Virus record (IMG/VR): IMGVR_UViG_3300034356_004067
Span: 1-23,005 of that record
Source of the DNA: a virus
Reading direction: 5' to 3' (one strand)
DNA: 23,005 nt
The notes beneath the pieces are model-generated. The model worked only from the letters and a program-made list of their open reading frames with translations. It did no database searches and was not told where the DNA came from. Position 1 is the first letter of the stretch. The number at the start of each line of letters is the position of its first letter. A program made the position numbers and the translations under genes. Positions 3,787 to 20,533 of the stretch are shown here, piece after piece.

Positions 3787-4494
3787 ATGTTGACGGTGGT
3801 GGATGAGTTAGAACCAGAGCACCCAAGGAACTGGAACGAGGCTGCGGCCTCCTGTATTTCTGAGATTTTAGAACAAATCTCCCGGCCTCTGGCCCACATG
3901 CAAAAAGAAGAAGAAAATATCAAAACCAGGATTGTCAGCTCGAATCCATGCGGCCCTCTAGAAAATGACCTTTTTTTGAATTCTATTCTCGAAGGCCTCT
4001 CGATGATTGATAATCATTTTGAAGGCATGGTCCAGAACATGAACTGGTTTGAATCGGACCCAATGTACTGGGTTGAAGAATGGAAGAATCTTGGTTCTAT
4101 CGCAGCGGTGGCAGGCATAAAAAACGGGAATTTACTTCCGTTGGCCGGCGAAGACCATCCAGAAAATACGTTTTTTTCAGCTTCGGCAGCGGGAGCTGAC
4201 AACATTTGGAAGACTGAGGACAACACCTGGAGACTTCAGGACGATTTAACATCGACGCTTATCCGGAAGCAGTCAGATTATGGACATAATAATATTGCCC
4301 GCTTCGGACGCCAAGGTCTGATTGTCCGATGTCATGACAAGGTGGCAAGATTAAAAAATCTTCATCTATCACGCGCCGGCCAAGCAGCTAACGAATCAAT
4401 CGCCGATACCTATACTGACATCATTGGCTACTCGGCAATTGGTATGATGTGGGAACGTGGCTGGTTCCTGTTAAATTTAACCAAGAATACGTGA
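3787..4494 (+). CDS. DUF1599-like (nucleotide modification associated domain 1) protein
   Basis: The last ~80 residues carry the signature of the Nmad1/DUF1599 family, an all-alpha NTP-pyrophosphohydrolase-like fold: KQSDYGHNNI at 161-170, GLIVRCHDKVARLKNL at 177-192, and NESIADTYTDIIGYS at 202-216. These conserved polar positions normally face a nucleotide. Members occur in phages, often near nucleotide or base-modification genes; the exact reaction is not established. The N-terminal 150 residues are less conserved-looking and may be a phage-specific helical extension. The start region coincides with the dispersed 17-mer (3790-3806), so the first codons (LTVVDE) may not be selected as protein. 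It starts 3 nt after the preceding gene. Confidence 0.65.
   Translation: MLTVVDELEPEHPRNWNEAAASCISEILEQISRPLAHMQKEEENIKTRIVSSNPCGPLENDLFLNSILEGLSMIDNHFEGMVQNMNWFESDPMYWVEEWKNLGSIAAVAGIKNGNLLPLAGEDHPENTFFSASAAGADNIWKTEDNTWRLQDDLTSTLIRKQSDYGHNNIARFGRQGLIVRCHDKVARLKNLHLSRAGQAANESIADTYTDIIGYSAIGMMWERGWFLLNLTKNT
3790..3806 (+). repeat. Dispersed 17-mer, copy 3
   Basis: TTGACGGTGGTGGATGA, one mismatch from consensus. It overlaps codons 2-7 of the DUF1599-like gene. Confidence 0.75.
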
Positions 4495-7669: not shown

Positions 7670-8020
7670 TTAGTCGCCCCACATTTGGGCAAGTGTCGGT
7701 CTTGTGGGTTTGATTTTTCGTCTTCTTTGTTCTGCCGCCAGTTGCCTGCTGGTTAGTCCAGCCCAGACTCCATGCATATCGGCCGGCGGAAACTCTAGTG
7801 CGTACTCTAGGCAGTCTTCGATGACTGGGCATGTTCTGCATAGTGCTCGTGCTTGTGCGATGTATGTAATGTCCTTATGTTGTTTGGGGAACATTAGTGA
7901 GGTTTGCCCTCTACAACTGGCATCATTAAACCAAGTTTTAAAAGGTATATCCATTGCCGGCGATGGTTGGGCATTATTTTTGGGTAATTTTTGTTGGGGT
8001 GTTATATCTTCGTTTGACAA
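7670..8020 (-). CDS. WhiB-family [4Fe-4S] transcriptional regulator
   Basis: Four cysteines at 36, 61, 64 and 70 (DASCRG, then C-X2-C in CRTC, then EDCLEYA) match the WhiB iron-sulphur ligand set. The family turn GVWAGL is at 84-89, followed by a basic DNA-contacting tail (RQLAAEQRRRKIKPTRP). WhiB proteins are confined to Actinobacteria and their phages, and usually act by binding region 4 of the host primary sigma factor. The TTG start at 8020 is chosen because AGGAGA lies 5 nt upstream; the next Met is residue 23. It could redirect or silence host transcription. Which WhiB subfamily it belongs to cannot be told by eye. Confidence 0.9.
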   Translation of the reverse strand: MSNEDITPQQKLPKNNAQPSPAMDIPFKTWFNDASCRGQTSLMFPKQHKDITYIAQARALCRTCPVIEDCLEYALEFPPADMHGVWAGLTSRQLAAEQRRRKIKPTRPTLAQMWGD

Positions 8021-8390: not shown

Positions 8391-8636
8391 TCAGGCGGGG
8401 TCTTGTTTTCCGTCTTGTAGCCACCTGTACATATTCCGCCAGTGAACGCCCTGCCACAGTATCCACATGGCTAGGAAGCCTGGTTTGTTAAACAGTATTG
8501 AATAAACTGCCCAGGGGAATGAGTGCAGGGCGATAATCATGTGTCCGTGCCAGCGCTTGTTTCCAACCGTGTAGCTGCCATATACGCCAACTATCTCCAT
8601 GAAGAAGAGAAGCCATGTCCATGTTGACTCACTCAT
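8391..8636 (-). CDS. Small three-helix membrane protein (81 aa)
   Basis: The protein is hydrophobic through most of its length, with probable helices at ~7-23, ~34-50 and ~53-66, many Trp/Tyr residues and a basic end (RNMYRWLQDGKQ). The GVYGSYTVGNKRWHG and FPWAVYSILFNKPGFLAMWILW pattern resembles small PnuC-like or holin-sized membrane proteins common in actinophages, usually of unknown function. ATG 8636 follows a dispersed 12-mer copy with only one extra base between, and no classical ribosome binding site. It is 8 nt downstream of the proteasome-like gene, so the two are in one operon. Confidence 0.65.
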   Translation of the reverse strand: MSESTWTWLLFFMEIVGVYGSYTVGNKRWHGHMIIALHSFPWAVYSILFNKPGFLAMWILWQGVHWRNMYRWLQDGKQDPA

Positions 8637-8637
8637 T

Positions 8638-8649
8638 GACTTATCTACT
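8638..8649 (-). repeat. Dispersed 12-mer AGTAGATAAGTC, copy 7
   Basis: Minus-strand copy. Bases 3-5 are the TAG stop of the proteasome-like gene (the same register as copy 2), and the next ATG begins 1 nt after the motif. Confidence 0.85.
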
Positions 8650-9280
8650 TCTGTTCTATTGGTTTTTTGGGCTCTGCCGTCTGAATGTAGGTGTGATATG
8701 GGGAGCCGGTATGTGGGTCAAGCTTCGCTGCGATACTGAGGGACTTGAGGCATATGCCTTTTGCCTGTATAGCGGAGAGCTTTTTACCGCCGGCGAGTGA
8801 ATGTACGGCACCAAGGGCGTAGTCCGACCCACTGCCAACGGCATAAAGGCCAGATGCATCAGTTAGCCAGGAGTAATCGCTGTCAATTAGGTAGATAGTG
8901 GCATTTATGACCACAAGCAGCGATGAGGCTTGTTCTGCGTTGTGGTTTTTGTTCTCTTTGTTCTCTGGGGGAGAGTAGCCATGCAGGTCGAAGCATGCTC
9001 TTAAAGCTGGGATAAATTTAACTGTCATGAAATGGTCAAGCTTCTTGCCTCTATCTGCTGGATGAGCAGGTGGAGGGGAAAAAGCGTGGGTAAGAAGGTT
9101 TATTGCGCGCAGGTCTCCGGCAGCACCAATGAGGTATTTACCATTTGTCGTAATTTTAGAGACACCTTGGCTGAGCGTGGTCATGTGATATGCCGGGCCA
9201 TCCTCAAGAAAAGAGGTTATTCTTGTGTCGGCAGCTAATACTGCAAAACCCTCTCCTTGTATGCCCAGGATTGTTGTCAT
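8645..9280 (-). CDS. Proteasome beta-subunit-like Ntn hydrolase
   Basis: The N-terminus MTTILGI is followed by FAVLAADTRIT, the arrangement of mature proteasome beta subunits and HslV. After Met removal, Thr1 would be the nucleophile. Asp17 is in AADTR, and Lys41 (in SKITTNG) matches the usual Lys33 with a small insertion. GSGSDYALGA (149-158) matches the conserved Ser129/Asp/Ser loop. There is no propeptide, so the Thr would be exposed simply by methionine aminopeptidase. The family cleaves peptide bonds inside oligomeric chambers. A phage copy could replace or poison the host proteasome or act as a stand-alone peptidase. It overlaps the winged-helix gene upstream by ATGA. Confidence 0.75.
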   Translation of the reverse strand: MTTILGIQGEGFAVLAADTRITSFLEDGPAYHMTTLSQGVSKITTNGKYLIGAAGDLRAINLLTHAFSPPPAHPADRGKKLDHFMTVKFIPALRACFDLHGYSPPENKENKNHNAEQASSLLVVINATIYLIDSDYSWLTDASGLYAVGSGSDYALGAVHSLAGGKKLSAIQAKGICLKSLSIAAKLDPHTGSPYHTYIQTAEPKKPIEQK

Positions 9281-9525
9281 GTGAATTTTTCGCCTTCTTG
9301 ATTTACCTTTTCGATATTTTCAAAGACATTCGATAACACATCGTAATTCAGGTCATTTGTTTTGGTTAGCAAAGACCTTCCTTCTTCTGTCATGGTATAC
9401 AGCCATTGACCATCGTCGAGTATTCCGTCGATTTCAATGAGTCCAGCCCTGCGGAGCGTTTCTAAATCTCGATACAGGTCTTTCTCTGTATATCTTTCGT
9501 AATTAGACGTCTCTTCGTCGCTCAT
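9277..9525 (-). CDS. Winged-helix-like small protein (82 aa)
   Basis: Residues ~12-55 look like the second half of a winged helix: DLYRDLETLRRAGLIEIDG (recognition-helix style), then a wing DDGQWLYTMTEEGRSLL. The tail is acidic and helical. It overlaps both neighbours by ATGA (the phosphoesterase stop at its start, the proteasome-like start at its end), so all three are translated together. It might regulate this operon or be an adaptor for the hydrolase; the sequence does not distinguish between these. Confidence 0.6.
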   Translation of the reverse strand: MSDEETSNYERYTEKDLYRDLETLRRAGLIEIDGILDDGQWLYTMTEEGRSLLTKTNDLNYDVLSNVFENIEKVNQEGEKFT

Positions 9526-10736
9526 TCGGCAACATATTCCTTGCCTCGCAGGATTCCTCGACCGTTATATATCCACATTGGCTCGTAATTGAACCATTCA
9601 TTACCAGAACCAAATGGCTGATAGGTGACTATTCCTAGTCCCTGCTGCCAGTTCTCGGCTCCTTGGAGAATTGGACGTCCAAATTCATCCATCCCTGATT
9701 TCGTGGAAGGAACAGCGCCATCTACTCGGCACAGACACCCAGGGCTAGCGGCCATAATCGTGCGCGGACCCTGGTCCGTGCGGTAGGTGCGGTAGGCAAG
9801 CTCGTTTCGGTGGATGTGTCCGTATATCACCGAGATTCTTTCGTTGTCTAGGTACTTTTTGGTGGTCGAGTTGTTTGACACAACTTTGTCACCGTGTACA
9901 ACGACAAGATTAGAGTTCAGGTAATGTGCTGATTCCGGGTATCCGGGGAGGTAGTCGACGCCAAATTCGTCCATTCGGCACAAAAATGGCACCGACATGA
10001 CGGGCCAACCCTCGCGCAGTTCGTCATTTGACTTCCCTCGCGTAATTCCGAAAGCAGCTTCGGCGTTGGTCTGGATGTATCTAGCCATTCTGGCCTCGTG
10101 GTTGCCAGCAATCCATGTGATTTTTGCGTTTGGCGCAGCCTCACGGACCTGAGCACACAACATGGTTGCCCTGTCAATTGAAGCCTGAAGCATTTGTTTA
10201 AAAGGGGCAGCAGTAAGGAATTTCCCTAATTCAGCAAAGTCAAGGTTATCTCCAACCATTACTACCTGGTCTGGCTTCATTTCTTCGATGACTGCTAGCG
10301 CCACGGCTATGGCTAACTCATCGTGAATCGGTTCTAGCTCCGATGAATCGAGTGATTTTCGGTAGAAACCAATTTGTATATCAGGTACGATAATTGCCGT
10401 CTCCCACTCCTTGGGGGGTGCTGATTTTGTCTTTGGCTTTTGTAGTTGTATTTTTGGCCCTTTTTCTATGAGTGGCCACTGTGGTCCGGTATCCCACGAA
10501 GGACTAAATTGAATTGCCTGAAGGTCGTGGATAATCGCTTCGCCGGTGTCTGGGTTCTTTGTTACCGACTGATACAGAGAAACCTTCTTGACGCTTCCAA
10601 CCTCGCTTGGGTCAATCCCCTTGCGCTCAAGCATGGCTGCGATGTCGTTTAGGACCTTCTTGCCGGTGGCCTCACGGCTGGCATTTTCTGCCATAGTCTT
10701 GAGGGTAGAATTTAGGGCATTTTTGTTAGCGACCAT
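9522..10736 (-). CDS. Calcineurin-like metallophosphoesterase with N-terminal extension (404 aa)
   Basis: The five metallophosphatase blocks are present in order: PDIQIG (D119, with Gln121 in place of the usual His), GDNLD (162-166), GNHE (211-214), VHGD (280-283) and GHIHR (306-310). These bind two metal ions and hydrolyse phosphomono- or diesters. The first ~110 residues are an extra region (helical, then beta, then a Lys/Pro linker) without a recognised fold. I start at ATG 10736 because the preceding gene stops 2 nt upstream; a longer frame from 10781 would overlap that gene. Substrate (nucleic-acid end, nucleotide or protein) cannot be read from sequence. The DxH-to-DxQ change is notable. 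Confidence 0.8.
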   Translation of the reverse strand: MVANKNALNSTLKTMAENASREATGKKVLNDIAAMLERKGIDPSEVGSVKKVSLYQSVTKNPDTGEAIIHDLQAIQFSPSWDTGPQWPLIEKGPKIQLQKPKTKSAPPKEWETAIIVPDIQIGFYRKSLDSSELEPIHDELAIAVALAVIEEMKPDQVVMVGDNLDFAELGKFLTAAPFKQMLQASIDRATMLCAQVREAAPNAKITWIAGNHEARMARYIQTNAEAAFGITRGKSNDELREGWPVMSVPFLCRMDEFGVDYLPGYPESAHYLNSNLVVVHGDKVVSNNSTTKKYLDNERISVIYGHIHRNELAYRTYRTDQGPRTIMAASPGCLCRVDGAVPSTKSGMDEFGRPILQGAENWQQGLGIVTYQPFGSGNEWFNYEPMWIYNGRGILRGKEYVAE

Positions 10737-10738
10737 TG

Positions 10739-11017
10739 TTATTTGCTCTTTTCGTTTGAGTCGGATTGTTGTAGACAGCAACTTTGTGACCCGCCCTTAA
10801 AGCAGGTATTTCTTTTTTCTCCCAGGTATTCTCTGCTTATTGGGATACCGTCGTCTTTCAGGGCTCTGACGAGACCCATAGTCGAGGTGTTACTACAGAG
10901 GGCCTGAATAAGGGTCTCCGCTGTTTCCTCGTCAAGGGAGTTAATGATTCCCCCAAGTTTGCAGTCCCACTTTCGGGCTGGATTATTGATTAATTTCTGA
11001 AGTGAATCTCTCAACAT
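10739..11017 (-). CDS. Small hypothetical protein (92 aa), first gene of minus operon
   Basis: ATG 11017 is preceded by GGAAAAGGGG, a good ribosome binding site; a longer frame reaches 11098 but starts in the operator region. The N-terminal 65 residues are helical with a pattern like a small DNA-binding or adaptor domain (LRDSLQKLINNPARKW, then DEETAETLIQALCSNTSTMGLVRALKDDGIPISREYLGEKR). The helix pair ending in ISREYLGEKR recalls a helix-turn-helix. The tail has three cysteines and is Ser/Gln-rich. It is followed 2 nt later by the phosphoesterase. Confidence 0.6.
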   Translation of the reverse strand: MLRDSLQKLINNPARKWDCKLGGIINSLDEETAETLIQALCSNTSTMGLVRALKDDGIPISREYLGEKRNTCFKGGSQSCCLQQSDSNEKSK

Positions 11018-11103
11018 GGGTTCCCCTTTTCCTGCTATTCTCGTTGTTGTGCTTACTTTCGCAACTAGTGTTCTCTGTATCGGTCGCACCGTCATCACAG
11101 ATG

Positions 11104-11130
11104 CTACACCATTAAACTACACAGGTGTAG
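11104..11130. promoter_or_regulatory. Operator-like repeats between divergent genes
   Basis: CTACACC (11104-11110) and CTACAC-AG-GTGTAG (11117-11130) give three half-sites of CTACAC in 27 bp. The region lies between the minus-strand operon and the divergent winged-helix gene that starts at 11138. Autoregulation by that protein is the simple reading. Confidence 0.45.
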
Positions 11131-11137
11131 GTATCTC

Positions 11138-11587
11138 TTGAGGTCTCAGAAAATTAATGACATTAAAAAGGTTCTTGAGGACGCCATCTCCAAAGAAGGG
11201 GACGGCGAGATAACTGTCGAAAAATTCATGCAGGCCTTGGATAGCAAGAAAATTCTCCGCTACCAGAAAGAGCATGAAGTTAATATTCTGTCTACTTCTG
11301 GGAGAGTTCTTGCGGCTCTAATCGAAGACCAGAACATGACTATTCGTGCAATCTCTGTCTATCTTGATTTAAGCGAAACAATGATTGATAAAACAGTAAA
11401 ACAGTTAATAAATGCAGGGCTAATTACAAAGACAAAACTCAATCGACAAAATGTCTATAGATGTAACGATAAAGCAATTCTTGAGCAGCCTGATATACGT
11501 AACATTCTTAGTGCTATAAAAATTTTAAAGCACGTTAATTCTGCCAACGAGACGCCCGACCAAGGTGGCGATTCTTCTCCGTTTTAG
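11138..11587 (+). CDS. Winged-helix transcriptional regulator (149 aa)
   Basis: Residues ~53-110 form a MarR/ArsR-like winged helix: GRVLAALIEDQNMTIRAISV, then YLDLSETMIDKTVKQLINAG (recognition helix), then LITKTKLNRQNVYRCND (wing). The N-terminal 50 residues are a helical charged region, perhaps for dimerisation. The start is TTG 11138, the only reasonable upstream start in frame; the ribosome binding site is weak. It is divergent from the minus operon, with operator-like CTACAC repeats directly upstream, so it may control both directions. Confidence 0.65.
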   Translation: MRSQKINDIKKVLEDAISKEGDGEITVEKFMQALDSKKILRYQKEHEVNILSTSGRVLAALIEDQNMTIRAISVYLDLSETMIDKTVKQLINAGLITKTKLNRQNVYRCNDKAILEQPDIRNILSAIKILKHVNSANETPDQGGDSSPF

Positions 11588-13067: not shown

Positions 13068-15380
13068 TTATTCTGGCTCTCTCATATGAAGGTACAAAGC
13101 ACCTAGGAGAGCTATGCCAGAAGACACTCCGGCAATAGTTTTAATACTTCCCGAGAGTGTCAAATAGACAACCAGGGAGCCGGATATTGAAAGACCCAGG
13201 CCGAGTACTCCATAAATAAATTTTTTCATAAAAAGACTCCATTTAAAAGTTCGGACATTATTATTGTACTGGAAAACACTTAAGTTTTTAATCCATTCCT
13301 TGCTGTCTCCCGCAATCTCGCCAGAGAACTCTTCGTCGTCTTCTGGCTTGCGAGCACTATTGTTATTGGGCGCTCCGCCAGTCCCACTAGGACCACCAGA
13401 ACTACTAGAGCCACCTATTGCGCCACCAACCACAGCTACCGCTGCGCCTACGGCAATAACCGTGCGTCTATCGCCAACGTCAATCTGAGAATTTAAAGGA
13501 ACGTATGTGTCAATGGCTCCATCGAAAATATTTATTTCGGCTTCTAAGGACTCTCTGACTTCGGTAGGCGCATCTTGAACAGCCTCAATAAGTTGCGCTG
13601 CATCCTCTGAACTTATATTCGAAATATCAACGGCTTCGAATATTTCCGCAGCCTGGTCGCCGTCAACACTTTGCAAAACTTTTGCGCTCGTAGCGAGGTC
13701 TACAGCCTGGTCTTCCGTGACCCCATTCTCAATGACCGAGTCGACAGCAGCCGAGACCTGTTCTTCTGTGACCGTTTCTGACTCCAAGACGTTAACCAAT
13801 TCCTCAAATTGCTCATCAGAGATTGGCTCATCCAAGACGGCAGAAATGATTGAGTCAAATTTCTCATCGGAAATTGGTTCATCAAACACTGCACCGAGGG
13901 CTTCCGCGAACTGTTCTGTACTTAGGGGTTCATCAAAGACTGCCTGTACTGCAGCATCAAACTGCTCTTCGCTAAGGGACTCGGTGTCTTCAAAGACCGC
14001 CGCAACGGCATCTTGGAATTGCTCATCCGAAAGAGGTACATCAAACACTGCAGTAACCGCATCATTGAACTGTTCTTCCGATAATTGGCTAGGGTCTTCA
14101 AACACTGCATCTACAGCCGCAGCAAAGTTTTCATCAGATAAAGGCTCGGAAAAAACAGAATCAATAACCGTGGAGAACTGAGCATCTGTGAGTTCTTGGT
14201 CAAGGAGGGAGTTGACTACGGCAGTTAGTTCTTCAGGAGTATCGGCATCGGCGACCAAGTCGTCAACAGCTTCTGCGAGTTCGTTATTAGATATGGGCGT
14301 ATCAAAAATGTCCTCGACGGCAGTGTCGGCGGCATCCTGAACATCTTCTGGAACTTCTATCGGCGGTTCGCTCGTCGTTGGCGTTGTTTCGGGTGGTTCT
14401 GTTGGTTTAGGTATCGTTTCTTCAACTGTTTCTTCTGGTGTTGTTGTTCCAACTGGAACCTCCACTTCCGTGGTTGTTGTGGTTTCGGGTTCTGGTTCTG
14501 GTTCTGGCTCTGTAGTGGTTGTAACTATTTCTGGTTCTGGTTCAGTAGTAGTTGTGGGTTCTGGCTCTGGCTCGGTAGTAGTTGTGGGTTCTGGCTCTGG
14601 CTCGGTAGTAGTTGTAGTACTGGTCGTGGTAGTTACGGCGGTTGTTTCAGAAACCTCATTACTCCAACCTGAATAAACCGAGACAGAATCATTGTCGGCA
14701 CGAACCTTAAATTGATAGGTGGTTCCTGGTTCTAGATTTTCAACAACTGCAGATGTGTCCGTAGATGAGATTGCCCAGCCAGAAACCCAATTGTCATTGG
14801 AGAAAAAAATGGCATATCTCTCCACTTGGATATTTGACTGTTCCGGAGCGTTCCACGACAAATAAACTTTATTTTCATTACTGGATGTGACTATTAGGTT
14901 TTCTGGACTATTTAAATACGGAGCGATAGTCGTAGTGGTAGTGCTAGTGGTGGTTGTGCTGGTACTGGTTGTGGATGGGGTGTTGGTCGGCGTTAAGTCT
15001 GATTCGACTACGTAAGATGTTCCATACCACCTCGTAGGGTCCCCGCAGCAAACGCCCGTACGGATGCGATAGGTCCCAGTTGCTTGTACGTTATAAGAGA
15101 TGTATGAATCAAGACCGTAAAAGTCGTCGTTTGAAGCCAATTCCGTATTATTACTGTCATACAGCCATAGCTGGCTGTCAATACCGTATTGCTGAGCGTA
15201 GGTTCTTACGGTAAATGTAGTTCCGGCTTGCAGCTCATAATAATAGTCATTGGCGCCATCGGTTGTTAGAGTGCTGGCCTTTAATGGGCTCGAAAAAAAA
15301 GAAACAACCGAAAAAATCAAAATAGGTATTATCGCCCATGTGCTGGGTCGTGGTCTTATATATCTGTTGCCAATTCTCAA
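13068..15380 (-). CDS. Large repeat-rich, membrane-anchored surface protein (770 aa)
   Basis: Domain order: signal peptide or N-anchor (15-35, hydrophobic, ending LKAS); a PPC-like beta domain (~40-128, YYYELQAGTTFTVRTYAQ to GTYRIRTGVCCG); a Thr/Ser linker (130-152); a fibronectin type III domain (~157-247, LYLSWNAPE-type core and LEPGTTYQFKVRA); Thr and Pro-Glu repeats (248-345); eight or more ~19-residue degenerate helical repeats of the form LSEEQFDAAVQAVFDEP (~361-560); a Gly/Ser stretch (655-675); and two C-terminal transmembrane helices (~720-741, 747-765). The start is TTG 15380, with GAGAGG 7 nt upstream. This looks like a bacterial cell-surface adhesin or sensor and not a virion protein. 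It is unusual in a phage and may be a moron-type gene that alters the host envelope. It lies directly downstream of the glycan cassette. Confidence 0.7.
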   Translation of the reverse strand: MRIGNRYIRPRPSTWAIIPILIFSVVSFFSSPLKASTLTTDGANDYYYELQAGTTFTVRTYAQQYGIDSQLWLYDSNNTELASNDDFYGLDSYISYNVQATGTYRIRTGVCCGDPTRWYGTSYVVESDLTPTNTPSTTSTSTTTTSTTTTTIAPYLNSPENLIVTSSNENKVYLSWNAPEQSNIQVERYAIFFSNDNWVSGWAISSTDTSAVVENLEPGTTYQFKVRADNDSVSVYSGWSNEVSETTAVTTTTSTTTTTEPEPEPTTTTEPEPEPTTTTEPEPEIVTTTTEPEPEPEPETTTTTEVEVPVGTTTPEETVEETIPKPTEPPETTPTTSEPPIEVPEDVQDAADTAVEDIFDTPISNNELAEAVDDLVADADTPEELTAVVNSLLDQELTDAQFSTVIDSVFSEPLSDENFAAAVDAVFEDPSQLSEEQFNDAVTAVFDVPLSDEQFQDAVAAVFEDTESLSEEQFDAAVQAVFDEPLSTEQFAEALGAVFDEPISDEKFDSIISAVLDEPISDEQFEELVNVLESETVTEEQVSAAVDSVIENGVTEDQAVDLATSAKVLQSVDGDQAAEIFEAVDISNISSEDAAQLIEAVQDAPTEVRESLEAEINIFDGAIDTYVPLNSQIDVGDRRTVIAVGAAVAVVGGAIGGSSSSGGPSGTGGAPNNNSARKPEDDEEFSGEIAGDSKEWIKNLSVFQYNNNVRTFKWSLFMKKFIYGVLGLGLSISGSLVVYLTLSGSIKTIAGVSSGIALLGALYLHMREPE
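14470..14615 (-). repeat. Pro-Glu/Thr-coding tandem repeats
   Basis: Includes a perfect 30-bp tandem pair (14551-14580 and 14581-14610) plus degenerate units, coding TTTTEPEPEP. The array is prone to slippage and length change. Confidence 0.75.
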
Positions 15381-15437: not shown

Positions 15438-16712
15438 TTAAATATCCCTCTTGGGAATGTTTCTTTGTTCAATAGGGCTCAGTCTGCCTTTATGCTGAAC
15501 ATCTATGTCTTTTCTGACCCACGTCATCCCGTATGGCGTGTCTAGATTCTCAACTCCAACTCTCATCATCAGGCGTTCCGCCATTGATTGAAACGAAGGG
15601 TCGTCACTTAAATTGAGATACGAGTTATGAAACCACGGAAGGTCATAGAAAGCTGGAGAATTAACAAGAAGACACCCGGCCGTAGTCCAGTGCTCTTCAA
15701 TTGGGGGGCTTTCGCTTATTACTTTTCCAGACAAACAATAAGCCCCAACATTTGCCCCAACAAGAGGTCTGTCTACTTCAAGCATTTTTTCAACAATCTC
15801 TACTGTTAGCTGTATGTCTGAGTCGACATATAGGATTGCTTGATAATTAACTACCCCAATGTTCCTTTCGGCGCAGTCTTCTCCCCAGTGGTGACCAGAG
15901 GTGACCCTATGTCTTTGAGCAAATTCTCGGATTAGGTTACGACCAGTTTCTATGCGAATCCATCTATTGCCGGACGTGACTTCTGCCTGCATGTCGTTTA
16001 TCGAGTAGGTCCAGTAGTCGCCATTGACTTCGCGAAGTGCAGCAACGACTTCGTGGAATGGTTCAACGCCGCGCACATCTGTCTCAAGTGCGGCAAACCA
16101 TTTAACGTTTGGAAACTTTTCGATGATTTGAGCCCTGTTTGAAAGCCAGTCCAAGTGTTCTCTAGCCTCGCACTTCCATGGGACTAGAGGGGTTCCGATG
16201 ACAAAATGCTTGCTGTAATCTATTGATTTTAATACCGAGGAAATGTGAGGTGCTGGTTCCGGATTTTTTAACTTCGATACAAAATCTGAACAAACTCCAG
16301 CATATTGAATCTCCCATCCTGGAGTTAGTTCTGACCAGTTCGCTTCAGGCATCACCTTTATACATTTTGCAGAGGTGTATTTTTTTCCTGGATAGGACCA
16401 CACATATCCCGTGCTTGTTAGTGTGTAATCGTCTACGTTATGAAAAAAACAATTCAAACCATTTCTCATAGCAAAACTTAATGCGTCAGTGTTTTTGCAA
16501 TGAACCCATATTTGGGTTGTTCTGTCAACCAGCCACTCGGCTGGGACTTGGTGCTGGGGCCAGTCATGGCCAAGAAATATTCCAGATTCATTAATCCATA
16601 AATCAACCTCAACATCAAAGCCTTGCGCTATTGCTTGCTCAATGTAGTCTGGCTGATTTTCAAATTCAGGATTAGGCCCGTTAAGGTTTCCGCGATGTGA
16701 TATGTAAATCAT
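15438..16712 (-). CDS. GDPD-like domain fused to GT-A-type glycosyltransferase domain (424 aa)
   Basis: N-terminal ~1-150 has the order of glycerophosphodiester phosphodiesterase TIM barrels: ISHRG (H6, R7), EVDLW (E35, D37) and LGHDW (H49), closing with QYAGVCSDF. C-terminal ~165-424 looks like a GT-A glycosyltransferase, with YVDSD (D297, D299) as a DxD metal/nucleotide-sugar site, then GANVGAYC and a HWTTAGCLLVN acceptor-loop pattern. The fusion suggests handling of a glycerophosphate- or phosphodiester-linked glycan. It is the last of five tightly packed genes, overlapping the methyltransferase by ATGA. The barrel call is good; the GT call is based on motif and length. Confidence 0.65.
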   Translation of the reverse strand: MIYISHRGNLNGPNPEFENQPDYIEQAIAQGFDVEVDLWINESGIFLGHDWPQHQVPAEWLVDRTTQIWVHCKNTDALSFAMRNGLNCFFHNVDDYTLTSTGYVWSYPGKKYTSAKCIKVMPEANWSELTPGWEIQYAGVCSDFVSKLKNPEPAPHISSVLKSIDYSKHFVIGTPLVPWKCEAREHLDWLSNRAQIIEKFPNVKWFAALETDVRGVEPFHEVVAALREVNGDYWTYSINDMQAEVTSGNRWIRIETGRNLIREFAQRHRVTSGHHWGEDCAERNIGVVNYQAILYVDSDIQLTVEIVEKMLEVDRPLVGANVGAYCLSGKVISESPPIEEHWTTAGCLLVNSPAFYDLPWFHNSYLNLSDDPSFQSMAERLMMRVGVENLDTPYGMTWVRKDIDVQHKGRLSPIEQRNIPKRDI

Positions 16713-17416
16713 TTTTCAACCTGAATCCATATCCAGTTTCTGTGATTGTCTCCAGGACCGGTATCTCTGATATCTGACTTGTAGTTGGTATACCCAATCT
16801 CGTCAACGAGGTCCTTTTGTATATCTGCTTCTTCTGTAATGCTTACATCTGCATGCCCGTTAGTGCTTGCCGCATCAAATATGTCATCGAAATATCCAGC
16901 AGTAGGAATTCCGTCTTTGCCCCCGTGTCCCATTTGGAAGCAAAGCTTTCCTCCCGGTTTTAGGACTCGATAAATATCTTTAAGAATATTAAATCTAATC
17001 TCGTGAGAACAAATATGTTGAAAGCAAATAACAGCGAAAACAACGTCATAGGTGTTTTCTTCTATCATCGATAAGTTGTCACCACTTGTGACGTAAAGGT
17101 TTGAGTTAAAAATATTGTTGTGTTCTAGGTTTATCTTTGCTTTATCAATATTGATATCGGAGATGTCTATTCCGTCGATTCTTGCAAAACGGTTAGAAAA
17201 CTTCACAAGGTTTCTTCCCGGGCCACACCCGTACTCGAGGGCAATTAGACCATTTGTATCAAAGTCCTTAAACAAAACAGTGTCATAGTCTGCCCAGTTG
17301 TTGTGGGCATCGTACGAACCAACGACAGGGTCTCTGAAAGACAACGACCACTGACTCGCATATTCGTCATAATACTTATTTTGCATGGACAGGTAGTCCG
17401 TTTTTGTCTTTTTCAC
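16709..17416 (-). CDS. SAM-dependent class I methyltransferase (235 aa)
   Basis: Motif I is EYGCGPG (61-67), motif II GIDISD (~83), motif III-like TSGDNL, and post-I VVFAVICFQHI, followed by VLKPGGKLCFQMGH, the usual order for small-molecule or sugar methyltransferases of the Methyltransf_11/25 type. Start is GTG 17416, overlapping the HAD-nucleotidyltransferase stop (GTGA). Within the glycan cassette it probably methylates a sugar or acyl intermediate. The target cannot be told from sequence. Confidence 0.75.
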   Translation of the reverse strand: MKKTKTDYLSMQNKYYDEYASQWSLSFRDPVVGSYDAHNNWADYDTVLFKDFDTNGLIALEYGCGPGRNLVKFSNRFARIDGIDISDINIDKAKINLEHNNIFNSNLYVTSGDNLSMIEENTYDVVFAVICFQHICSHEIRFNILKDIYRVLKPGGKLCFQMGHGGKDGIPTAGYFDDIFDAASTNGHADVSITEEADIQKDLVDEIGYTNYKSDIRDTGPGDNHRNWIWIQVEK

Positions 17417-18786
17417 TTATGGTTCTCCAAGTAATAGTTGAGGTCTTCCGGTGTTCCGATTCCCCACATCTCGGAAACTTCTTTAATTCGTATTTTCTTT
17501 CCGTCTTGAATTGCTTCATTAAATACGGGGCAAACATAGAACTCATTGTTGGTTCTTATGTTTTTTTCAATCATTTGATTTGCGTATTTAACATAGTCAG
17601 AGCCATGCTTCCAGTAGTAAACCCCTACCGTGGCATTGTCTGATATTGGATTTTTTTCAGCAACTTCATCAACAAACCCGTCTTCCCCTATTTTTGCATA
17701 AGACCACTTTGGGTGAGTTGCTTTAAACGTAAGTATTCCGCCGTCAATTTCATCTGCATCAAACGCGTATAGGCACTCATTGCTGTTCCACTCGATTAAC
17801 TGGTCAGAGTTTGCCATAAGAAGAGGGGCGTCATTGTCTATAAGGTCAGAAGCGAGAAGGGTCGTGCATGCTGCCCCTTCTGTCATTCCGTCAACAATTA
17901 CTATTTCGCATCCAGGTTTAATAATGCTCAATACTTGCTTGAGGTTGTATTTTTCGTAATGCTCTTTCTGTACAAGAAATATGAAATGGGCATCAATATT
18001 AAGATTATCGACCACCATCTGAATCATTGGCTTGCCGTGAACCTCGATGAGAGGCTTGGGAAATGTGTATCCAGCCTGGGAGAAACGTGAACCAGCTCCA
18101 GCCATAGGAATAAGAACGTTCATCTTTTCGTTCTTCCACGCAACATTTGTTCTTTGGCTTGCATTAATTTCTGATGCCATTCGTAATAATCTTTCTTTAT
18201 CTAGGCTGTATGAGTCTTTTATTGCATAGAGGTGAGCCCCAGAAGCGTTAGCTCCCTCTCTACCTATGTGCGAGTCTTCAACAATTATCGTTGAAGAAGG
18301 AGTTGCACTGCAGTTAATCATGCACTGCCAGTACATTTCTGGGTGAGGCTTATGATGTTTTACATCTTCGTTACTCATGATGTGGCTAACCATGTGCAGG
18401 ACGCCTATGGCGTTGAGAGCAGTAATTACTGTTTCACGAATAGCATTGCTCGCAACGGCTATTTTCCAGCCATCCGCTTTTAGGGTTTGCATTATGTCTA
18501 TTGCGTTTGCGTTTTTTGGCAATAAGCTCAATATTTCAATAGTTGACTTTTGCTTGTTTTCCCACACTTCTGAATGGGAATCTTTTGGAAGCCCTTTCAT
18601 AGAGGTGAGCATTTCTAGTTTCTTTGTAGTTCCAAGTCCATCAAAGGTAGATAAATGTTCACTGCGAGAGATAACGAACTCTTCTCCAACCAGAGATAGG
18701 GCTTTATTTAGCGATTCGTAATGAACATCGCGTGAATCTATAAGCACTCCATCTAGGTCAAATATAATCAGTTTTTGACTTTTCAT
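17413..18786 (-). CDS. HAD phosphatase - sugar nucleotidyltransferase fusion (457 aa)
   Basis: Residues 1-205 are a haloacid dehalogenase phosphatase: FDLDGVL (nucleophile D10, D12), SNA (S113), HKPHP (K146) and VEDS (E170, D171). Residues 222-457 are a nucleotidyltransferase: PMAGAGSRF (228-235), FPKPLIEVHGKPM (243-254), an ANSDQ strand for metal binding, and a WGIGTPEDL end typical of NDP-sugar pyrophosphorylases. A fused phosphatase/nucleotidyltransferase can act in sequence on one sugar-phosphate, as separate GmhB- and HddC-like enzymes do in heptose pathways. The substrate here is unknown. ATG 18786 overlaps the GT stop (ATGA). Confidence 0.8.
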   Translation of the reverse strand: MKSQKLIIFDLDGVLIDSRDVHYESLNKALSLVGEEFVISRSEHLSTFDGLGTTKKLEMLTSMKGLPKDSHSEVWENKQKSTIEILSLLPKNANAIDIMQTLKADGWKIAVASNAIRETVITALNAIGVLHMVSHIMSNEDVKHHKPHPEMYWQCMINCSATPSSTIIVEDSHIGREGANASGAHLYAIKDSYSLDKERLLRMASEINASQRTNVAWKNEKMNVLIPMAGAGSRFSQAGYTFPKPLIEVHGKPMIQMVVDNLNIDAHFIFLVQKEHYEKYNLKQVLSIIKPGCEIVIVDGMTEGAACTTLLASDLIDNDAPLLMANSDQLIEWNSNECLYAFDADEIDGGILTFKATHPKWSYAKIGEDGFVDEVAEKNPISDNATVGVYYWKHGSDYVKYANQMIEKNIRTNNEFYVCPVFNEAIQDGKKIRIKEVSEMWGIGTPEDLNYYLENHK

Positions 18787-19436
18787 TGGGATTCCGGGCC
18801 GGCATGTCTATGCCATTTATTGTGTCTAACAACGCTTCCACCATTACATTTCATGACGTACTTGTTACGCACCCTCATAGACCATTCGACATCTTCTTCT
18901 TCATTCCAACCCCGAGACTCATCAAGAGGCTCTTCTTGTAGAACGTGTTTTTTAACTATAAAGAATCCGCCAGAGATATACATGTATTGGGTTTGCGACC
19001 AGTCGTCGTAGTCGAGTGACCATGCCCTGCCGTGGTCTGGCTTATCCCAAAGAGACCAATCCATCGGGTTTCTGGCTCCGGTAATCAAATACTGAGGGCA
19101 TGAACATATTTCCCAGTCTGTACCAAAAGATTTAAAATTCACATACCAGTCTTTATCAAAAACGTGATAGTCATGCATTAATACAATATTTTCGTATTTT
19201 GCTTCAGCGGCAAGAATGTTCTTTTTTCTTGTTATCCATTTAGATTTTTGTGATTCGTCAAAATCGATTACCCTCAAGTCTTCGGCGGAATTAGAAAATT
19301 CATTGCCACCCCCGCCAATCAAGAGAATTTCATATTCGGGAATGGACAAATTCCTTATTGAATTAATTATTTCATCAAGTCTTTGACGGTCTTCAAATCC
19401 CGTAACTATCCCAAAAGTCCACCGAATATCATTCAC
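18783..19436 (-). CDS. GT-A-type (GT2-like) glycosyltransferase (217 aa)
   Basis: Begins with a nucleotide-sugar-binding strand (FGIVTGFEDRQRLDEIINSI) and EILLIGGGG, followed by an Asp-rich strand IVLMHDYHVF (D89-x-H91, equivalent to DxD/DxH) and GGFFIVKKHVL with an EEEDVEW acidic end (catalytic-base region ED/EW). Short for the family but with all core blocks. GTG start at 19436, 2 nt after the stop of the upstream GT-B gene. A phage or host surface glycan is the likely acceptor. Confidence 0.75.
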   Translation of the reverse strand: MNDIRWTFGIVTGFEDRQRLDEIINSIRNLSIPEYEILLIGGGGNEFSNSAEDLRVIDFDESQKSKWITRKKNILAAEAKYENIVLMHDYHVFDKDWYVNFKSFGTDWEICSCPQYLITGARNPMDWSLWDKPDHGRAWSLDYDDWSQTQYMYISGGFFIVKKHVLQEEPLDESRGWNEEEDVEWSMRVRNKYVMKCNGGSVVRHNKWHRHAGPESQ

Positions 19437-19438
19437 GG

Positions 19439-20533
19439 CTAAATATTGTCCTTGATGAACTTCATCGTTGCGTCCCAGTCATCACCACGAGCATCCATGG
19501 AAAAATCTTTTGCAATCTCGTAATTTTTGTCAGCTTCGTTTCGTCTCGCGGTGACGTCAATTAGTTGGTCTAAATGGTGCATCCATTCGTCTTTTGTGTT
19601 TGCAATTCGACCTACTCCCTTGTCTGCTAAATATTGATATTCGGGAGAATATGAAGAAACAAAGGGAATGCCGGCCGCCACATACTCAAGACCCTTGATG
19701 AAGGATTTTGCGTGATTGAATTCAATATTATTCAAAGGAACAATTCCAATATCAATTTGTTTAAATAAATTGGGGTATTGGTAAATTGGGGCCATGGATG
19801 TAATTTTAGAATACTTTTCATCAATTCCTAAAAGCTCATGTGCCAGCGGCGCACTTGGGTTGTGTCCAGAATGTTGAAAAAAAAGTTTTCTGCTTTGAAT
19901 GTATTTGCCCATAAACTTATTGAGCTGCTCAAGGTCGTTGGAGCGCCAATGAGTTGCTCCGACCCATCCGATACGAGGACGTTTGTTAACTGTTATTTGC
20001 TTTCGCGTCCATCGATGAAGGTCGATGCCGTTGCGCACCATGAAAACGTTGTTGCGTTTTTTGCTGTAATATTCAAACAGAAACGGCGTTGACGTGATTA
20101 TGGCGTCGGCAGCCATAATTATCTGTGCGTATATCTCTCTATTTGAATCTGGGTTAGTTTTTGGGTCAGTTGCCGCATAAGCCCTATTCGATTCCGACAG
20201 CCCGTCGTGCCAATCGTCAACATCTACGACGATTTTTTGCCCCATTGCTTGAGCCTTAAATACTGATTCGAGTACTTCTTTCTGCATTAAAAGCTTCAGG
20301 ACAATAATGTCCCATCCGTGGACAGACCGACCGTCTTCTGTGAGCATCCCAAATCCGCGTTGTTCGTTATATCCCGGGAATCCAACAGCACTAAACCACC
20401 CTCTTTTGTTCAGTTCATCAGAAGGGAGCTTACACCTGTACCATGCGCACCCATTCGGCTGTAGAGGGTCTGTGCCCCAACACCAATCATGGGTGAGGAA
20501 TGCAATCGTTGGTTTTTGGGTTCGGCGTTTCAT
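19439..20533 (-). CDS. GT-B-type (GT4-like) glycosyltransferase (364 aa)
   Basis: N-terminal half binds the acceptor (AWYRCKLPSDELNKRG, and VVDVDDWHDGL). The C-terminal half has the GT4-like nucleotide site: RIGWVGATHWRSNDLEQL, then IDIGIVPLNNIEFNHAKSFIKGLEYVAAGIPFV, where the Lys and Glu positions contact the sugar-nucleotide phosphates. First gene of the minus-strand glycan cassette, with ATG 20533 divergent from the tail-protein operon at 20711. The shared 177-bp gap must hold both promoters. Confidence 0.8.
   Translation of the reverse strand: MKRRTQKPTIAFLTHDWCWGTDPLQPNGCAWYRCKLPSDELNKRGWFSAVGFPGYNEQRGFGMLTEDGRSVHGWDIIVLKLLMQKEVLESVFKAQAMGQKIVVDVDDWHDGLSESNRAYAATDPKTNPDSNREIYAQIIMAADAIITSTPFLFEYYSKKRNNVFMVRNGIDLHRWTRKQITVNKRPRIGWVGATHWRSNDLEQLNKFMGKYIQSRKLFFQHSGHNPSAPLAHELLGIDEKYSKITSMAPIYQYPNLFKQIDIGIVPLNNIEFNHAKSFIKGLEYVAAGIPFVSSYSPEYQYLADKGVGRIANTKDEWMHHLDQLIDVTARRNEADKNYEIAKDFSMDARGDDWDATMKFIKDNI

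Follow-up and report, generated by a model that had tools for sequence, protein, structure and literature searches.

A proteasome-fold hydrolase of actinophages and its near-constant metallophosphoesterase partner

Introduction

Homologs of the proteasome are known from phages, but we know of no established function for them there. Several related enzymes frame the question. In HslV (ClpQ), the catalytic Thr1 is freed by methionine removal. Some Ntn hydrolases, for example connectase, are monomeric ligases, and some actinobacteria have a Pup-proteasome. A 2021 survey of proteasome homologs identified neither an informative gene neighborhood nor an AAA+ partner, and it found no AAH in Actinobacteria-specific phages (PMC8665760). 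PPH, also a phage proteasome homolog, is ~140 aa long and is without helix H2, and connectase carries an insertion at the S3/S4 site (PMC8665760).

Here we describe NTN, a proteasome-fold Ntn hydrolase encoded in a phage gene block, and compare it with these systems and with the HslV-annotated protein WJZ48484.1 of Actinomycetia phage DSL-LC01.

Results

Gene layout of the block

The DNA analyzed here (the window) is a stretch of 23,005 nucleotides from a 23-kb virus record (IMGVR_UViG_3300034356_004067), and the gene block lies on its minus strand. In the order of transcription, it begins with g92 (10739-11017, −), a small conserved Cys-containing protein for which Pfam and PHROG profile searches gave no family match. 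After 2 bases comes MPP (9522-10736, −), a 404-aa calcineurin-like metallophosphoesterase, followed by an 82-aa winged-helix-like protein (9277-9525, −), the 211-aa NTN (8645-9280, −) and, after 8 bases, a facultative 81-aa membrane protein (mem81; 8391-8636, −), which is hydrophobic by hydropathy and matches a PHROG of unknown function (phrog_2421, E 6e-9). Last is a WhiB-family regulator (7670-8020, −) with a TTG start and AGGAG, matching PF02467 (E 4e-15; 56.6 bits vs a cut-off of 23.6). The profile matches confirm that, as proposed in a sequence-only reading, a proteasome-like Ntn hydrolase, a metallophosphoesterase and WhiB are encoded in a phage gene block. That reading counted six minus-strand genes, three overlapping by ATGA; the order is as described, but WhiB is 370 bases downstream of the block and outside 8391-11017, leaving five genes inside, and there are two ATGA junctions (9522-9525 and 9277-9280), which link the three genes MPP, winged-helix and NTN. 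The gene called a winged helix is present, but its assignment is weak, the PadR-like match (E 0.008) being below the cut-off. Its product is acidic (pI 4.2, net charge −11), and the gene was not found at loci L008-L010, L066-L067 and those of other relatives, and is therefore facultative. The position of g92 upstream of MPP is conserved across relatives.

A TrmB/MarR-like regulator gene (11138-11587, +) diverges from g92, and because of this divergence the promoter of the block is probably located in the 120-base intergenic region between the two genes (11018-11137). No match to the sigma-70 consensus was found in this region, and a promoter scan gave fewer sites than shuffles. The virus probably infects freshwater actinobacteria; WhiB points to an actinobacterial host, a use of this gene that is published practice (PMC6802176). 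Neither megablast against named phages nor PADLOC gave a match. A cellular origin of NTN was rejected, as the sole genome match was a mis-binned phage contig: this contig (JAURLY010000091.1) is filed under a gammaproteobacterial genome, but it is a phage contig of the NTN clade with identical gene order.

Elsewhere in the window, the enzymes at 15438-20533 (−) include, by domain matches, a SAM methyltransferase (16709-17416, −), a HAD hydrolase fused to a nucleotidyltransferase (17413-18786, −) and a glycosyltransferase (19439-20533, −). They adjoin an fn3 tail protein (13068-15380) and are possibly a glycan or DNA decoration block. A protein with a C-terminal DUF1599 (nucleotide modification associated) at 3787-4494 (+) hints at modified phage DNA.

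Active site, fold and relatives of NTN

NTN matched the Pfam Proteasome family (PF00227, E 1.1e-6) and, over residues 1-206, phrog_1040, "peptidase HslV family" (E 4.9e-24). Thr2 (codon 9275-9277), following the methionine, is the equivalent of Thr1, while Asp18, Lys42 and Gly55 correspond to Asp17, Lys33 and the oxyanion Gly47, and GSG is found at 149-151. All four residues are invariant in the NTN family (31/31 sequences), and the equivalents of Thr2, Asp18 and Lys42 are kept throughout a wider set of 28 homologs, among them proteins from Rhizobium, Streptomyces and several phages as well as E. coli HslV (28/28). Like nearly all family members, NTN starts with Met-Thr-Thr, and there is no propeptide, also when GTG and TTG starts are considered; the earlier proposal of a Thr1, Asp17 and Lys33 site without a propeptide thus holds. 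With such a start, removal of the methionine alone would free Thr1, judging from the behavior of HslV. The dN/dS of ~0.05-0.08 indicates strong purifying selection, the ratio being approximate because dS is saturated. As far as can be judged from its sequence, NTN is catalytically intact and propeptide-free, and it is predicted to be an active threonine peptidase.

The single-chain AF2 model of NTN (pLDDT 79, pTM 0.78; low-confidence loops at 27-30 and 111-115) and its Foldseek matches show the beta-sheet core conserved in the family, flanked by helices H1-H4. It has a helix at 78-99 and no large H3/H4 insertion, the H3/H4 region being of roughly HslV-like length. The best Foldseek matches were HslV and BPH, the beta-proteobacterial proteasome homolog (E ~1e-10, TM 0.6-0.7 to solved structures), and TM was 0.86-0.94 to phage HslV-like predictions. 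NTN reached neither the NCBIfam equivalog cut-off for HslV (31.5 bits vs 157.75) nor that for the bacterial proteasome beta subunit PrcB (12.8 vs 191.9), and the HslV profile scored it higher than the beta profile did. By sequence and predicted fold, NTN appears to belong with HslV and BPH. That it might be a stray proteasome beta subunit was rejected, as the PrcB equivalog was missed, there is no propeptide and each of 11 related phages has one PF00227-type gene per genome.

NTN resembles HslV in its fold and in Thr1/Asp17/Lys33, but differs from it in missing the equivalog cut-off, in longer loops after H1 and H2, and in that no HslU was found. BPH, which ranks near the top of both the structure and the profile matches, resembles NTN in its longer pore loop and in having no known unfoldase; however, it shares only ~18% identity with NTN and comes from other taxa, and the pore loop of NTN is not strongly acidic. 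An assignment to PPH was rejected on length and on the helix at 78-99, where PPH is without H2. The closely similar DSL-LC01 protein (phrog_1040) has 46% identity with NTN and the same catalytic residues, and a WhiB gene adjoins its gene, as near NTN; it differs in a longer Lys-rich tail, and no phrog_20266-type MPP was found in this phage by a search whose control was weak.

In the tree, NTN, the DSL-LC01, Pumpernickel and Pitbull actinophage proteins and ct2KA10 formed one clade (split support 100/99). The other clade unites phage proteins of Moorella and Psychrobacter with homologs on plasmids of Rhizobium, Streptomyces, Paraburkholderia and Bacillus; from this taxon distribution, rather than from the published AAH alignment, it seems to be AAH-like. 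The two clades are sisters (hhalign 99.8%, 178 aligned columns) and have an H1/H2 motif in common, whereas the AAH-like proteins have TSS at the oxyanion loop instead of AGD, and mostly GCG instead of G[ST]G. The deep, long-branched nodes (HslV, WaterT, JSF10) are uncertain, and AlphaRep matches in the profile search were set aside as chance matches to a repeat. The NTN clade is a new branch of a known kind of phage proteasome homolog, and it is a real, conserved feature.

Pairing of NTN with MPP

MPP matched PF00149 (24.2 bits, above the cut-off of 21.5) and phrog_20266 (E 1.8e-66), and its dN/dS is ~0.03-0.05. The metal motifs are D119-x-Q121, GD163, GNH213E, H281 and GH307xH309, with metal residues invariant in the family. 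The first motif is an invariant DxQ, not the calcineurin-like DxH, while the other motifs are kept; this variant metal site of the family is worth biochemical study. A weak likeness to Mre11/Lmo2642 in a fold search (TM ~0.3, low-confidence model) was set aside.

Scanning IMG/VR with MPP gave 69 loci, and scanning with the NTN alignment gave at least 586 encoding contigs, the best 80 of which were kept; both scans favor closer relatives and say little on the most distant NTN genes. In 78 of these best 80 loci, MPP precedes NTN on the same strand, the two genes mostly overlapping or lying ≤3 bases apart, otherwise ≤300. After clustering at 85%, NTN was present in 24 of the 25 MPP clusters and MPP in 32 of the 37 NTN clusters, the exceptions including three DSL-LC01-type loci. 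WhiB was a frequent but not constant neighbor, and the winged-helix and membrane genes were also often absent; what stays constant is therefore MPP-NTN, in most cases joined by g92. Of the genes named in the sequence-only reading, the constant partner of NTN is MPP and not WhiB.

The pair occurs in two phage types, genomes of 136-170 kb, to which the relatives of the window belong, and genomes of ~95 kb, whose portal and capsid genes are unrelated to those of the larger type while NTN is the same. Neither protein strictly needs the other, as each occurs alone in some phages: NTN in the DSL-LC01 type, and MPP relatives in Clavibacter and Microbacterium phages, where the metallophosphoesterases of CN1A and Lyell (phrog_20266/221) have 33-39% identity with MPP and no NTN beside them. 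A literature search found nothing on MPP together with a phage HslV. This near-constant phosphoesterase partner is the most useful new fact of the analysis.

Search for proteasome and unfoldase partners

The 11 related phages yielded neither an alpha subunit nor Pup, absences that are provisional as many relatives are fragments. For an HslU-like unfoldase, there was no AAA_2 match over the cut-off in six relatives, some of them fragments. A phage-encoded unfoldase was rejected, the AAA matches examined being MoxR-like, one with a VWA partner. These MoxR-like ATPases lie ~10 kb from the NTN block at loci L019 and L021, and at L019 a VWA-domain protein is next.

Discussion

The reading that we favor, and that could equally well prove wrong, is that NTN is an HslV/BPH-like homo-oligomeric threonine peptidase without a dedicated unfoldase, sharing one transcript and one process with MPP. 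The computed support is the fold, the active-site residues, selection, the single copy, the pairing with MPP, and the searches of relatives that found no Pup, alpha or HslU-like partner. Host methionine aminopeptidase would remove the methionine and expose Thr1, which would be activated by the Asp17 and Lys33 equivalents, and the subunits may self-assemble into a ring like that of HslV or BPH. Such a ring would cut unfolded or accessible polypeptides, or specific ones, of the host or the phage, with no dedicated ATPase or unfoldase. NTN and MPP would be co-made from one transcript and may serve the same host-takeover or counter-defence process. The earlier suggestion of a chamber of its own is compatible with the model, which matches ring-forming HslV and BPH and contains no large H3/H4 insertion; the low-confidence loops and the modest TM to solved structures are points against a ring peptidase.

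The main rival to the ring peptidase is a monomeric specific processing enzyme. NTN might be such an enzyme or a connectase-like ligase, a monomer or dimer with a single substrate, perhaps acting with MPP, and we consider this possible though distinctly less probable. It would fit the additional residues (about 24-40) that separate Asp17 from Lys33 close to the S3/S4 site, the clade-specific residues R58, N61, F67, P69 and P70, invariant in the 31-sequence family, the near-constant MPP and the failure to find an unfoldase. However, the model is without inserted helices at S3/S4, the H3/H4 length is compatible with double rings, and the G[ST]G and D188-x-x-T191 motifs resemble those of proteasomes.

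It is rather unlikely that MPP and NTN are unrelated passengers, adjacent only through the recent common ancestry of the phages. The paired loci are all on related actinophage-like contigs and each gene is found alone in other phages, as such a history would allow, but the pairing is kept at ~53-56% MPP identity and in phage types that differ in their head genes, and MPP-NTN stays while WhiB, the winged-helix gene and the membrane gene disappear or change position.

It is very improbable that NTN is a proteasome-fold protease acting in virion assembly (head maturation). In the ~95-kb relatives, g92-MPP-NTN does sit between the terminase and the portal-scaffold-capsid genes, in a region with no recognizable prohead protease, and no S78 was found in two such genomes. 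In all eight window-type relatives (8/8), however, a canonical S78 prohead protease is encoded well away from NTN, and on this ground the role was rejected for phages of the window type; in DSL-LC01, WaterT and Pitbull, NTN is accompanied by a separate annotated capsid maturation protease; and the head genes are unrelated between the two phage types that share the same NTN. The S78 domain (L182-L185; G001:C1:31578-32030 and equivalents, −) lies within open frames of ~3000-3700 aa (1227 aa in G009), an unusual giant capsid-protease protein.

We give least credence to the idea of the sequence-only reading that NTN enters the host 20S proteasome or competes with it, so redirecting Pup-dependent degradation: NTN has the proteasome fold and some actinobacteria do have the Pup-proteasome, but NTN is nearer to HslV and BPH than to bacterial beta subunits, relatives yielded no alpha, Pup or Mpa-like partner, and a host proteasome, presumed in that reading, is not universal in actinobacteria. 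Mixing into host rings is unsupported because a propeptide-free start is normal for such homologs and the searches of relatives yielded neither an alpha subunit or Pup nor an HslU-like unfoldase; the score against the beta subunit points the same way, and a link to Pup degradation is likewise unsupported, no Pup having turned up in the 11 related phages. That not all actinobacteria have a proteasome follows from our control panel, in which Corynebacterium glutamicum has Pup but no PF00227 match; a literature search on the proteasome status of Nanopelagicales found no paper.

With at least 586 IMG/VR contigs, the NTN actinophage clade is abundant. We think it unlikely, but worth stating, that MPP and NTN form a two-enzyme machine, widespread in freshwater actinophages, whose enzymes act one after the other on the same host or defence substrate; if true, phages would have a module of a new kind for takeover or counter-defence. 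The pairing of NTN with MPP is a first testable lead to the function of phage proteasome homologs.
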